DNA of 45,337 nucleotides from Gemmatimonadota bacterium (GTDB lineage Bacteria; Gemmatimonadota; Gemmatimonadetes; Longimicrobiales; Gaopeijiaceae): NCBI GenBank assembly GCA_009841475.1, contig VXLT01000301.1, positions 1-45,337 on the forward strand, read 5' to 3'. The notes beneath the pieces were generated by a model, which saw only the letters and a list, made by a program, of their open reading frames with translations, searched no databases and was not told the origin of the DNA. Each line of letters starts with the position of its first letter. The stretch's first letter is position 1. This document shows, piece after piece, positions 797 to 37,891 of the stretch. Position numbers and translations under genes: made by a program.

Positions 797-802
797 TATC
801 TT
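797..802 (+). promoter_or_regulatory. Candidate -10 box (TATCTT) for the STAS/ATPase operon
   Basis: TATCTT preceded by GT and followed by C lies 50 bases before the start of the signalling pair. A weak TTGCGG at 772-777 sits 19 bases upstream. The same TANCTT pattern recurs before nifU-like, menG, glmM, recA and alaS genes. Promoter function is inferred. Confidence 0.45.
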
Positions 803-809
803 CACCCCG

Positions 810-851
810 ATGAAGAGCGCACTGCACCCTCCGCCACCCGCCGGTCCCTGA
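810..851 (+). CDS. Possible 13-codon proline-rich leader peptide
   Basis: An ATG seven bases beyond the TATCTT box opens a frame encoding MKSALHPPPPAGP and ending in TGA one base before the ATG of the STAS/ATPase gene. If the box is a true -10, the ATG would be at or next to the transcript 5' end, so the peptide would be translated as a leaderless message. Four consecutive prolines are known to slow ribosomes lacking EF-P help. The downstream gene has no clear Shine-Dalgarno sequence, so re-initiation from this leader is a reasonable idea. No homology is claimed; it may be chance. Confidence 0.3.
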   Translation: MKSALHPPPPAGP

Positions 852-852
852 G

Positions 853-1734
853 ATGCGCGTCATCGAAGTTCCGGCTTCGCTGGACTACCGGAACGTGGAG
901 GTGCTCTATCGGCAATGCGGGGCCGACGATGCGGGTCCGGTCCTCTTCGACGCCCGCCGGCTCAGCTGGATCGACCCCAACGGGATGCTGCTCCTTCTCG
1001 CTGCGGGCAAGGTGGCCGCACGGAGCGGGACGCTGCCCCGCATCTCGCTCCCGGCCCAACAGGAAGTCACGGAATATCTGGACAGGATGGGCTTTCACCA
1101 TGCCGCCGCCGGCATCTTCAAGTCCGGTGTCAGAAGGAGGCGCCGCTCCCATTCGGTCTCCGACGTGCTGCTGGAGATCACGCCCGTCACAACGAACTCG
1201 GACGTGCACGACGTGGTGGACCGGGTCCAGTCGCGAGCCGGCGCCATACTCTCGAACACGCTGCACTACCCGCCGTCCGCGGTGGTCCGGTTCTCCGTGA
1301 TCCTGTCGGAAGTGTGCCAGAACGTCATCGAGCACGCGGAGGCACCGGGTTGGGTCGCGGCGCAAGCCTACAACTGGAGGAAGAGACTGGGCCGCCACGT
1401 CGCGGTCATCGCGGTTTCGGACCTCGGCTGCGGTTTTCGCGCCTCCCTGGAGGCGGAGCACGCGGCCCGGTTCGGCGATCGCTGGGGGGACGCGACCGCG
1501 CTGGAGGCGGCGTTCCTCCTGGGGCTGACGCGCTTCGCCGACACGGGCCGGGGGCAGGGGATCCAGCAGATACGCAAGCAGGTGGGCCGCTGGCACGGCA
1601 TCCTTTCCATCCGCAGCGGAACCGCCCGCATCGCCGACACCCCCGACTGGAGCAGCCGGCCCCCGCTCGAAGAGGGGCTGACGCGCTTCCCCGGCTCCCA
1701 GATCAACATCATTCTGCCCGAGCGCATCGGATGA
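853..1734 (+). CDS. STAS-like domain fused to GHKL ATP-binding domain (anti-sigma-kinase-like)
   Basis: The 293-residue protein has an N-terminal half resembling a STAS/anti-anti-sigma fold (about residues 1-90, with VLFDARRLSWIDPNGMLLLL matching the conserved strand and Asp-containing loop) and a C-terminal histidine-kinase-like ATPase. The N-box is visible as SEVCQNVIEHAEAPGW, the G1 box as VSDLGCGF and the G2 box as GRGQGIQQIRKQV. There is no phospho-accepting His domain, so it resembles SpoIIAB/RsbW-type switch kinases rather than a two-component sensor. No membrane segment is seen. The start is the ATG at 853; a Shine-Dalgarno sequence is not evident. Its stop overlaps the next start by four bases (ATGA), implying co-translation with the STAS-like partner. 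Target is unknown. Confidence 0.75.
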   Translation: MRVIEVPASLDYRNVEVLYRQCGADDAGPVLFDARRLSWIDPNGMLLLLAAGKVAARSGTLPRISLPAQQEVTEYLDRMGFHHAAAGIFKSGVRRRRRSHSVSDVLLEITPVTTNSDVHDVVDRVQSRAGAILSNTLHYPPSAVVRFSVILSEVCQNVIEHAEAPGWVAAQAYNWRKRLGRHVAVIAVSDLGCGFRASLEAEHAARFGDRWGDATALEAAFLLGLTRFADTGRGQGIQQIRKQVGRWHGILSIRSGTARIADTPDWSSRPPLEEGLTRFPGSQINIILPERIG

Positions 1735-2372
1735 GCCGCGCGGATGAACCGAGCGATTCGAATGAGGCGGGCGAGTCGAACGGGCGGGCTTGCGCGATGA
1801 GCAAAGGGCCGGCTCCGCCGCTGACCATCGACGTGGGCGCGATCGCGAGCGACGCGGTCGCCCAGGCCCGCCCCGACCTGGTCACCCGTCCCACCGGGCG
1901 CGCCGTCAGAGCGGCGATCGAAGTGCGCATCTCCCGCATCGCCCGTTCCCCGTCGGTCTCCCTGCTGGACTTCACACGCGTGCGGATCCTGGACTTCAGC
2001 TGCGCCGACGAAGTGGTCGCCAAGCTGCTCGTCCGCTACATGCGGCGCGACCGTCCCCGCGAAGCCTTCTTCCTCTTCCGCGCCGTGGGCGACATACACC
2101 GCCATGCGGTCGAAGAGGTGCTGGGGAGGCATGGTCTGGCGGCAGTGTGCGACCTCGGAGGAGGATACGAACTGCTGGGGTCGGCGACCGAGGAGGAACG
2201 GACCGCGTGGCGGACGCTCGAACACCGGGGAAGGATCAGCCTCTCCGAACTCGCCGCGGAGTTCGGCGAACAGGGCGTGCCGGTGATCCGCGGGCTGGCC
2301 GACCGGCGCGTGGCGTGGTGCGGCCGCCGGGGCGATGCGCGCGCGCTCAGCGAAATCGCCCGCAATCCCTGA
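1731..2372 (+). CDS. STAS-like (DUF4325-type) protein with C-terminal helix-turn-helix-like segment
   Basis: This 213-residue protein starts within the stop codon of the ATPase gene. An alternative in-frame ATG lies at 1797. The central part has the alternating strand/helix pattern of STAS-like domains: SVSLLDFTRVRILDFSCADEV, then a helix ending KLLVRYM, then a strand EAFFLFRAV. After about residue 155 comes a segment RISLSELAAEFGEQGVPVIRGLADRRV that reads like a small winged-helix unit, although no DNA contact can be proved. The pairing of a STAS-bearing GHKL ATPase with a separate STAS-like partner suggests a partner-switching module. No receptor, phosphatase or sigma factor is adjacent, so input and output are unknown. 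Confidence 0.6.
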   Translation: MSRADEPSDSNEAGESNGRACAMSKGPAPPLTIDVGAIASDAVAQARPDLVTRPTGRAVRAAIEVRISRIARSPSVSLLDFTRVRILDFSCADEVVAKLLVRYMRRDRPREAFFLFRAVGDIHRHAVEEVLGRHGLAAVCDLGGGYELLGSATEEERTAWRTLEHRGRISLSELAAEFGEQGVPVIRGLADRRVAWCGRRGDARALSEIARNP

Positions 2373-2396: not shown

Positions 2397-3584
2397 ATGA
2401 ACTCCCGATCAGCCGCCAGCGGCAGACCCGGAACGGCTACCAGCGCGGTGCACGCGGGATGCCCCGAGCCCCGCCCGGGCGGCCCGGTGGTGCAGCCCAT
2501 CGTGCGCAGCTCCACCTTTCACTGGGCGGGGCCCGGCGACGGCCTCGACCTGAGGTACAGCCGGTACGGCAACAACCCGAACCAGCTGTCGGTCGCCGGC
2601 AAGATCGCCGCCCTCGAGGGAACGGAGGCCGGCCTCGCCCTCGCCAGCGGAATGGCCGCGATCTCGATGACCATCCTCTCCTCGGCCGGCCCCGGAGACC
2701 ACGTGGTCGCCAGCCGCCACCTCTACGGCGCCACCCACGCCCTGCTGTCCGGCGAGCTCCCGAAGCGCGGAATCACCACCACCTTCGTCGAACCGTCCGA
2801 TCCCGCGGCCTGGGAGGCGGCGCTGACCCCCCGCACCCGGGTCGTCCTCATCGAACTGCCCACCAACCCCACGCTGCGAGTCTTCGCCATCGGTCCCGCC
2901 CGCCGTGCCGCCCGGTCGGCGGGGGCGATCCTGGCGGCCGACATGACCTTCGCGACCCCCGTGAACATCCGTGCGGCGGAGCACGGCGTCGACGCGGTCA
3001 TCCATTCGGCCACCAAGTACCTTGGCGGCCACTCCGACCTGATCGCGGGGGTCGTTGCGGGGAGCCCGGAGTTGATCGCGGCCGTGACGAAGATGATGAA
3101 ACTCTACGGGGGCTCCATCGACCCCGGCGCCGCGTGGCTCCTCGAGCGGGGCATGCGCACGCTCCCGGCCCGCATGGACCGCCACAACCGCACCGCCCAC
3201 GCCCTGGCCCACTGGTTCACCAGGGTCGGGGGAGTCCGCTCGGTGATCTACCCCGGCCTGGCCGACCACCCCGACCACGAGATCGCCACGCGCATGCTGA
3301 GCGGGTACGGCGGAATGGTCTCGATCGTGCTCGATGGCGGGGGCGAGGCCGCGGACCGCTTCTGCGCGGATTTGCGGCTGGCCGCTCCGGCACCGTCGCT
3401 GGGCGGGGTCGAGACGCTGGTCTCACAGCCGCGCCACACCTCGCATGTGGATCTGGGCCGGGAGGAGCGGGAGGCGCTGGGGATCCCCGACGGATTCGTG
3501 CGCATCTCGGTCGGCCTCGAGGACCTGGAGGACCTCAAGGCAGACTTCCGTCGAGCCGCCGAGGCGGTGTTCGCCCACGGGTGA
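2397..3584 (+). CDS. PLP-dependent trans-sulfuration enzyme (cystathionine gamma-synthase / gamma-lyase family)
   Basis: The 395-residue protein has the full Cys/Met-metabolism PLP enzyme layout. SRYGNNPN matches the cofactor phosphate-binding Tyr/Arg segment, LASGMAAIS the next PLP-phosphate loop, and the Schiff-base Lys is Lys207 in HSATKYLGGHSD. The C-terminal SLGGVETLVSQPRHTSH and FVRISVGLED segments are typical substrate-carboxylate regions. A strong GGAGGTGAG Shine-Dalgarno sits just before the ATG. Family members make cystathionine from an activated homoserine, cleave cystathionine, or degrade methionine; the sequence does not settle which. It follows the STAS-like gene by 24 bases and may be read from the same transcript. 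A second family member lies at 18987-20168. Confidence 0.85.
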   Translation: MNSRSAASGRPGTATSAVHAGCPEPRPGGPVVQPIVRSSTFHWAGPGDGLDLRYSRYGNNPNQLSVAGKIAALEGTEAGLALASGMAAISMTILSSAGPGDHVVASRHLYGATHALLSGELPKRGITTTFVEPSDPAAWEAALTPRTRVVLIELPTNPTLRVFAIGPARRAARSAGAILAADMTFATPVNIRAAEHGVDAVIHSATKYLGGHSDLIAGVVAGSPELIAAVTKMMKLYGGSIDPGAAWLLERGMRTLPARMDRHNRTAHALAHWFTRVGGVRSVIYPGLADHPDHEIATRMLSGYGGMVSIVLDGGGEAADRFCADLRLAAPAPSLGGVETLVSQPRHTSHVDLGREEREALGIPDGFVRISVGLEDLEDLKADFRRAAEAVFAHG

Positions 3585-37816: not shown

Positions 37817-37891
37817 ATGTTCGCCGGAGTGCCAGGTACCGAGGAACTGCGGGCGGCGCGCCGCGCATGCCCGGTCGGTCCGGAACGGTAA
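37817..37891 (+). CDS. Possible 24-codon leaderless open frame in the recA leader
   Basis: An ATG six bases after the TATCTT box opens a frame that begins MFAGVPGTEELRAARRACP and ends in TAA, 36 bases before the recA ATG. If the promoter assignment is right, the ATG is at the transcript start. No homology is claimed; composition does not prove coding. Confidence 0.25.
   Translation: MFAGVPGTEELRAARRACPVGPER

Follow-up and report, generated by a model that had tools for sequence, protein, structure and literature searches.

CapK and CapS form a DNA-damage-responsive kinase-repressor pair, encoded by adjacent genes upstream of immune operons (EMBO J 2026, PMC13373217). As that report presents them, CapK is an HTH-STAS-GHKL protein and CapS a STAS domain joined to a winged helix-turn-helix; single-stranded DNA activates CapK, CapS is phosphorylated at S54, and the CapS dimer dissociates and leaves its DNA. 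The same source describes VapK, which has the STAS-GHKL arrangement without HTH, VapS, which consists of a STAS domain and a short tail, and VapC in the same system. The other described systems that bear on what follows are small open reading frames. Mycobacteria are reported to have an excess of leaderless small ORFs that are coupled to the gene after them (Shell et al. 2015, PMC4633059), and ribosome delivery is put forward as a function of short upstream ORFs in a 2025 review (PMC12548453).

The DNA analysed here is a stretch of 45,337 nucleotides (the window) from a Gemmatimonadota genome of 4.18 Mb. Near its 5' edge, all on the + strand, lie a 293-residue STAS-GHKL kinase (positions 853-1734; CapK/VapK-like by its predicted folds and by its match to a CapK profile) and a CapS-like STAS-winged-helix partner (1731-2372), which starts either at 1731, in ATGA overlap with the ATPase gene, or at the in-frame ATG 1797. 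The nearest upstream gene, a PfkB-type gene being absent, specifies a ROK-type sugar kinase (2-730, its 5' part cut by the window edge); the conserved downstream neighbour is a PLP enzyme of Cys/Met metabolism (2397-3584). The reading favored here, with a probability of about 0.6, is that the locus is a kinase-repressor switch on the chromosome, of the type represented by CapK/CapS, to which a leaderless mini-cistron has been added as ribosome loader.

In the AlphaFold model of the kinase built from the family alignment (mean pLDDT 86.3), residues 103-292 resemble SpoIIAB (1til_E; Z 14.8, 133 residues aligned, 2.4 Å) and RsbW (Z 11.8), these two ranking above every other GHKL protein in the list; residues 1-93 resemble a homologue of STAS anti-sigma antagonists (1vc1_A; Z 10.3, 88 aligned, 2.0 Å). 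The original prediction of a GHKL ATPase carrying its own STAS-like domain agrees with both folds. (Foldseek alone gave no match with E < 0.001 for either the kinase or the partner model, and the folds came from the VIA second look; Pfam finds STAS_2 and HATPase in the ATPase only below its cut-offs.) The motif of the kinase's own STAS domain is DPNG or SPYG. A profile of the family's kinases matches a three-sequence CapK profile over 247 columns (probability 97%, E 1e-10), and the invariant N-box residue Asn157 (codon 1321-1323) falls in the column of CapK N218, where all 14 aligned rows have Asn. A PADLOC scan of six window proteins yielded a single match, of the kinase to DrmA (positions 47-244 of 1750, E 3.8e-10), which is taken as a shared STAS/GHKL-type module that some DrmA-like defence proteins may carry.

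The partner is modelled with somewhat higher confidence (mean pLDDT 89.5, likewise from the family alignment). Its STAS fold resembles RsbS (6jhk_B; Z 9.1, 106 aligned, 3.6 Å), in a match list that is mixed with transporter STAS domains (Z up to 9.9). Residues 130-188, numbered from the start at 1797 (positions 2184-2360), form the winged-helix region by structure comparison, with matches to TrmBL2 (5bpd_D; Z 7.6, 57 aligned, 1.7 Å) and MarR (3vb2_B; Z 7.3, 60 aligned, 2.3 Å); winged-helix matches overall reach Z 7 to 8 across 55-60 residues, which by itself is middling evidence because the fold is common. The second STAS protein had been expected to end in a helix-turn-helix-like tail, and the predicted fold has one. 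Pfam finds no domain in the window's partner. An identity with DUF4325 (PF14213) was considered and rejected: its Pfam model matches 2 of 20 partners (best E 0.018), the window's not being one of them, and a literature search for DUF4325 together with STAS found no paper.

The relation of the partner to CapS becomes apparent through a cyanobacterial intermediate. Searched against PDB, the Gemmatimonadota partner profile does not return CapS among matches up to E 10, and its profile-profile match to CapS is weak (probability 27%, E 7e-4). When a Nostoc homologue is added to the profile, CapS (9z71) is the top match (E 7.1e-6, positions 29-175). This Nostoc protein, encoded by the gene after a Nostoc kinase, by itself finds the CapS structures 9z72 (E 0.0022) and 9z71 (E 0.034), and it is matched by the family partner profile with 94% probability; pairwise BLASTP of the window's partner against it gives no match. 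The kinase leads to the same place, its only match in 72,556 plasmid records being the Nostoc STAS-GHKL protein (E 2e-8; 32% identity, pairwise). On the plasmid concerned (Nostoc linckia, AP018224.1) the STAS-GHKL kinase and CapS-like protein genes are followed by two unannotated genes, and this locus is possibly a cyanobacterial capKS. Ser68 of the partner, in the sequence D-F-S (codon 1998-2000), is serine in 20 of 20 family rows and in 14 of 14 rows of the alignment with CapS, where it aligns with the phosphorylated S54 (the second S of D-S-S in WP_001567865.1). The CapK- and CapS-like genes used for comparison were taken from plasmids, one record carrying the CapS accession named in PMC13373217; the CapS stretch was also sought in phage records and found in none.

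The window's pair shares with CapK and CapS, as these are described, the adjacent order of kinase gene and repressor gene, the STAS-GHKL and STAS-winged-helix domains, and the positions of the catalytic Asn and phospho-acceptor Ser (N157 and S68, each in 14 of 14 rows). There are also differences. The window's kinase has no N-terminal HTH (it starts at the STAS domain, and an extension is present in 0 of 27 aligned homologues), in which it is like VapK rather than CapK. The aromatic residue that is reported to sense single-stranded DNA (CapK W68, VapK F54) has no counterpart in the Gemmatimonadota rows, all 10 of which show a gap there, in a part of the alignment that is loose. The CapS DNA contacts N145, K151 and G169-G170 are replaced by Q159, R165 and R182-A183, at positions that are variable in the family. 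Unlike capKS, the locus is a core chromosomal one, next to lepA, ROK, PfkB-type and Cys/Met enzyme genes; its conserved neighbours are housekeeping genes, and no immune operon was found among them. It also differs from the VapK-VapS-VapC system, as far as that is described, in having a partner with a full winged helix and in that none of the conserved neighbours is a VapC-type gene. The pair is homologous to CapK/CapS and is predicted, with fair confidence, to work in the same way, without being CapK/CapS proper.

The pair is a core pair of this Gemmatimonadota family. The kinase is present in 23 of 23 genomes of the genus and in 113 of 121 genomes of the family (71 of the 73 good ones), nearly always at one full-length place. 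Neighbourhoods were compared at 122 distinct loci (22 + 31 + 80 - 11: G014 was excluded from the genus loci, its match being cut by a contig end; from 37 initial loci L027, L028, L029, L030 and L039, on contigs shared with genus genomes, and the partial L042 were dropped; 80 of 86 near-full-length non-genus matches were used, leaving out G094, G076, G063, G097, G105 and G057; 10 further loci and G032 were dropped because their first 300 bases are identical to other rows). The STAS partner lies downstream of the kinase in 120 of these, a PLP enzyme follows in 41 of the 42 loci whose downstream sequence extends for 2.6 kb or more, and a PfkB-type kinase gene lies upstream in at least 109 (a lower bound, since some upstream stretches are short). 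Some lineages have lepA directly upstream, and there it is the lepA stop that the kinase start overlaps or approaches. The PfkB-type gene is missing from the locus in the genome of the window (G000) and in its relatives G007, G009 and G010, and a search over these four whole genomes found none.

Two accounts of the pair compete with a CapK/CapS-like switch. The original prediction had been a partner-switch pair with no sigma factor, phosphatase or sensor adjacent to it. A true partner switch, in which one member of the pair, the ATPase or its STAS partner, binds a sigma factor or another protein encoded elsewhere, is consistent with the fold of the GHKL domain, nearest to the anti-sigma kinases SpoIIAB and RsbW; partners in such switches can be encoded elsewhere in the genome. 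Likeness to SpoIIAB/SpoIIAA and RsbW/RsbV is confined to the GHKL kinase fold (Z 14.8) and the STAS folds: the window's kinase is fused to its own STAS domain, no sigma factor was found nearby, and the partner has a C-terminal winged helix, for which a pure antagonist has no need. Moreover, the nearest characterised relative of the partner binds DNA itself, as PMC13373217 describes it, and these points together make a partner switch unlikely. No sigma factor or phosphatase was identified among the conserved neighbours, and this is no puzzle, since in CapK/CapS the part of repressor is played by the STAS protein. The other account, in which the partner is ancestrally protein-binding like VapS, DNA binding came second and the window's winged helix may do something else, gains from some distant members, in Gemmatimonadales, whose partners lack the tail, and from VapS, reported as a STAS domain with a short tail. 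Most other partners keep the tail, however, and the conserved neighbours that were found are not toxins; a protein-binding ancestry accordingly looks distinctly improbable. (The tail-less partners, of 148-164 amino acids, stand beside an intact kinase in L044, L046, L049, L050, L054 and L058.)

Measured from the start of the kinase gene, the closest long ORF upstream has its end at -4 to +1 in 86 of the 122 loci; in 70 of these the two frames overlap by four bases (NTGA). An adjacent upstream stop (in any frame of at least 5 codons) is found in 115 of 122 loci, compared with 1701 of 8118 (21%) of other ATGs, and this favors the earlier suggestion that the ATPase depends on ribosomes finishing an upstream frame. 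The ATPase gene of the window had also been said to lack a Shine-Dalgarno sequence, and pairing with the anti-Shine-Dalgarno sequence 5' of its start is indeed very weak (-1.3 kcal/mol; -2.9 in a wider stretch). Pairing is weaker than -4 kcal/mol at 24 kinase starts, and each of these has a stop next to it, a few (the palindrome class, below) only by way of a stop with 10-base overlap that is possibly spurious; the 7 starts that have no adjacent stop all belong to the 98 with stronger pairing. This association fits coupling but is not significant alone (p about 0.2). Of the 22 genus loci, 18 have a TGA one base ahead of the kinase start, which in 10 cases terminates a long PfkB-type ORF. G016 and G020 have lost this TGA and have no mini-ORF, so coupling is not strictly required. 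In 12 of the 122 loci (G100, G102 and G106, for example) the kinase start reads as CTG and overlaps the upstream stop (CTGA).

In the window, where the PfkB-type gene is gone, a -10-like TATCTT (797-802, + strand; TTATCTT from 796) is followed after seven bases by a putatively leaderless mini-ORF of 13 codons and TGA (810-851, + strand), with the sequence MKSALHPPPPAGP. Its ATG is at 810-812 and its TGA at 849-851; a single base, G852, separates the latter from the ATPase ATG at 853-855 (TGA-G-ATG, 849-855), exactly the arrangement originally proposed. The block CTCC(G/A)TTATCTT...GATGAAGA is kept in G000, G007 and G010 and largely in G009. Promoter and ATGAAG start are retained in 4 of 4 PfkB-less genomes that have this promoter, with 7 or 8 bases between promoter and ATG and then ATGAAGA, with small differences in G009. 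Together with the genus-wide enrichment of the motif (below), this supports the proposal of a leaderless leader, whose transcript is predicted to start at its ATG. The orthologous frames read MKRLPHFPLLSGL in G007, MKRALHLRPRPPGS in G010 (+3 nt) and MKTSPVPYAPRCRP in G009, each followed by a stop. In G000, G007 and G010 the frame has 13 or 14 codons, the +3 nt being the only length change, and stops one base before the ATPase (TGA-N-ATG). G009, which has a good Shine-Dalgarno sequence, is organized differently: the TGA of its 14-codon frame overlaps an ATG (ATGA) that opens a second frame, MKSEGA and a stop, which ends TGA-G-ATG before the kinase. The peptide varies freely, so the expectation of a leader frame conserved among relatives is borne out for the frame and fails for the peptide. 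A phylogenetic tree groups G000, G007 and G010 (99/95) and sets G009 beside them without resolved placement; conservation of the frame is weak evidence because only four species carry the promoter and leader, possibly from a single origin. Elsewhere, a 16-codon mini-ORF in G001 bridges from the PfkB stop, which its ATG overlaps, to the kinase (TGA-C-ATG); an 11-codon bridging mini-ORF in G043 starts with GTG and ends in ATGA; and in genus g2 (G023-G033) a 20-codon mini-ORF, identified by eye, runs into the kinase start.

The working of the locus can be pictured as follows. A signal would activate the GHKL kinase, which would phosphorylate Ser68 of the STAS-winged-helix partner; the phosphorylated partner dimer would release its DNA, and target genes would be derepressed. 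The kinase itself would be translated by ribosomes that terminate beside its start, because its gene is almost without a Shine-Dalgarno sequence. In most relatives these ribosomes would be supplied by the upstream PfkB-type gene, which ends immediately before the ATPase start or overlaps it. In the lineage of the window, which has lost PfkB, transcription would begin at or beside A810, a ribosome would initiate leaderless on the ATG, read 13 codons to the TGA at 849-851, and re-initiate one base on. Re-initiation after the mini-ORF is plausible.

The mini-ORF might instead be a passive relic, a chance ATG at a new transcription start with the old PfkB stop surviving downstream and the ATPase initiating weakly in the ordinary way. 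The unconserved peptide fits such a relic, as do the ancestral stop just ahead of the ATPase (the TGA at -1 may be inherited from the PfkB stop) and G020 and G016, which manage without a mini-ORF. On the other hand, the ATGAAG block persists in 4 of 4 genomes even though the G009 kinase is only 78% identical, the three close species differ in length by nothing more than one change of +3 nt, G009 chains two mini-ORFs by ATGA, and the ATPase Shine-Dalgarno sequence is nearly absent in G000, G007 and G010. A relic is thus doubtful, though to be taken seriously. The original prediction also allowed that ribosomes might stall in the leader. An attenuator of this kind, in which the ATPase is regulated by stalling at the four prolines (by way of EF-P or of proline sensing), draws on the rarity of the run: of 820 ATG-started stop-free 13-mers in the window only the leader contains PPPP. 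When the run was checked among relatives, it proved to be confined to the species of the window, absent in G007 and broken in G010 and G009. Proline stalling in the mini-ORF is therefore unlikely, and attenuation as the control of the ATPase very improbable.

As a putative ribosome-delivering frame, the leader has parallels in the mycobacterial small ORFs as these are described (PMC4633059): a short leaderless ORF ends where the following gene begins, and placement and coupling are kept while the peptide is not. In contrast to the RTGA overlap reported there, the junction here has a one-base gap, the phylum is different, and the mini-ORF occupies the site of a lost, full-length coupled gene. 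The predicted leader is, on this comparison, a new case of a coupled leaderless small ORF, in another phylum, at a place where the coupled gene was lost. A broader proposition is offered tentatively, at less than even odds: that CapK/CapS-type switches are not only immune devices, and that in Gemmatimonadota one may have become a vertically inherited core circuit, sensing something other than single-stranded DNA and coupled translationally to a PfkB-type kinase, for which, after loss of PfkB, a leaderless 13-codon frame would have evolved as a pure ribosome-delivery cistron that keeps the coupling. An uncharacterised pair, conserved across much of the phylum, is in this way tied to a mechanism described in 2026 for immune operons (PMC13373217), and the serine, the kinase residue and the DNA target are therefore testable at once. 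The junction offers a before-and-after view of operon evolution, first with the coupled gene and then, after its loss, with a mini reading frame at the same place; it is relevant to the question, still open, of whether delivering ribosomes is the main reason why short upstream frames exist.

A separate element precedes the kinase in five members of the genus (L071, L075, L077, L079 and L080), the palindrome TGTAATG-N4-CATTACA, of which the window contains no copy. Seven genus genomes have 54 to 156 sites (up to 2 mismatches), compared with 0 to 5 in the control; 13 genomes of other genera have 0 to 2 (up to 1 mismatch), and 9 of these 13 have the kinase. The palindrome was rejected as a general operator of the partner on the latter count. 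BlaI as its reader is not supported either: the palindrome count does not follow that of BlaI-type genes, G016 having 2 BlaI-type matches yet the most sites.

The promoter-to-ATG arrangement of the leader recurs in the genus. TTATCTT-N4-9-ATG occurs 139 times in the 23 genus genomes compared with 41 times in the reversed control, the spacings 4 to 9 being represented 9, 23, 59, 29, 14 and 5 times (peak at 6; 111 of 139 at 5-7). The exact form TTATCTT-N7-ATG is not enriched in the window's own genome (2, compared with 1 in the reversed control), and a strict test at gene starts, with small numbers and a crude gene caller, showed no excess of TANNNT before gene-start ATGs. About 49 of 70 inspected TTATCTT-ATG sites, which include orthologues and are therefore not independent, open directly into a long coding-like frame, some with recognisable N-termini, such as that of methionyl-tRNA synthetase. 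In a few cases the site opens a mini-ORF that extends as far as the following gene: in L194 and L196 a leaderless-looking 11-codon frame ends four bases before a GTG. At L236 (in G013) a leaderless-looking 16-codon ORF overlaps the next gene, presumably a DNA methyltransferase gene, by ATGA. Literature searches by title found nothing on leaderless genes in this phylum (anti-Shine-Dalgarno statistics exist for the class) and only unrelated papers for the phylum with TTATCTT.

TATCTT-N5-9-ATG, expected 0.11 times in the window, is found twice. The second occurrence opens a leaderless-looking 24-codon ORF (37817-37891, + strand; TTATCTT, six bases, ATG) that ends 36 bases before ATG 37928, the start of a gene that, from its N-terminus, we take to be recA. 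The TTGACT promoter, this ORF and the gap are strongly kept in G007, G010 and G014, more so than the sequence further upstream.
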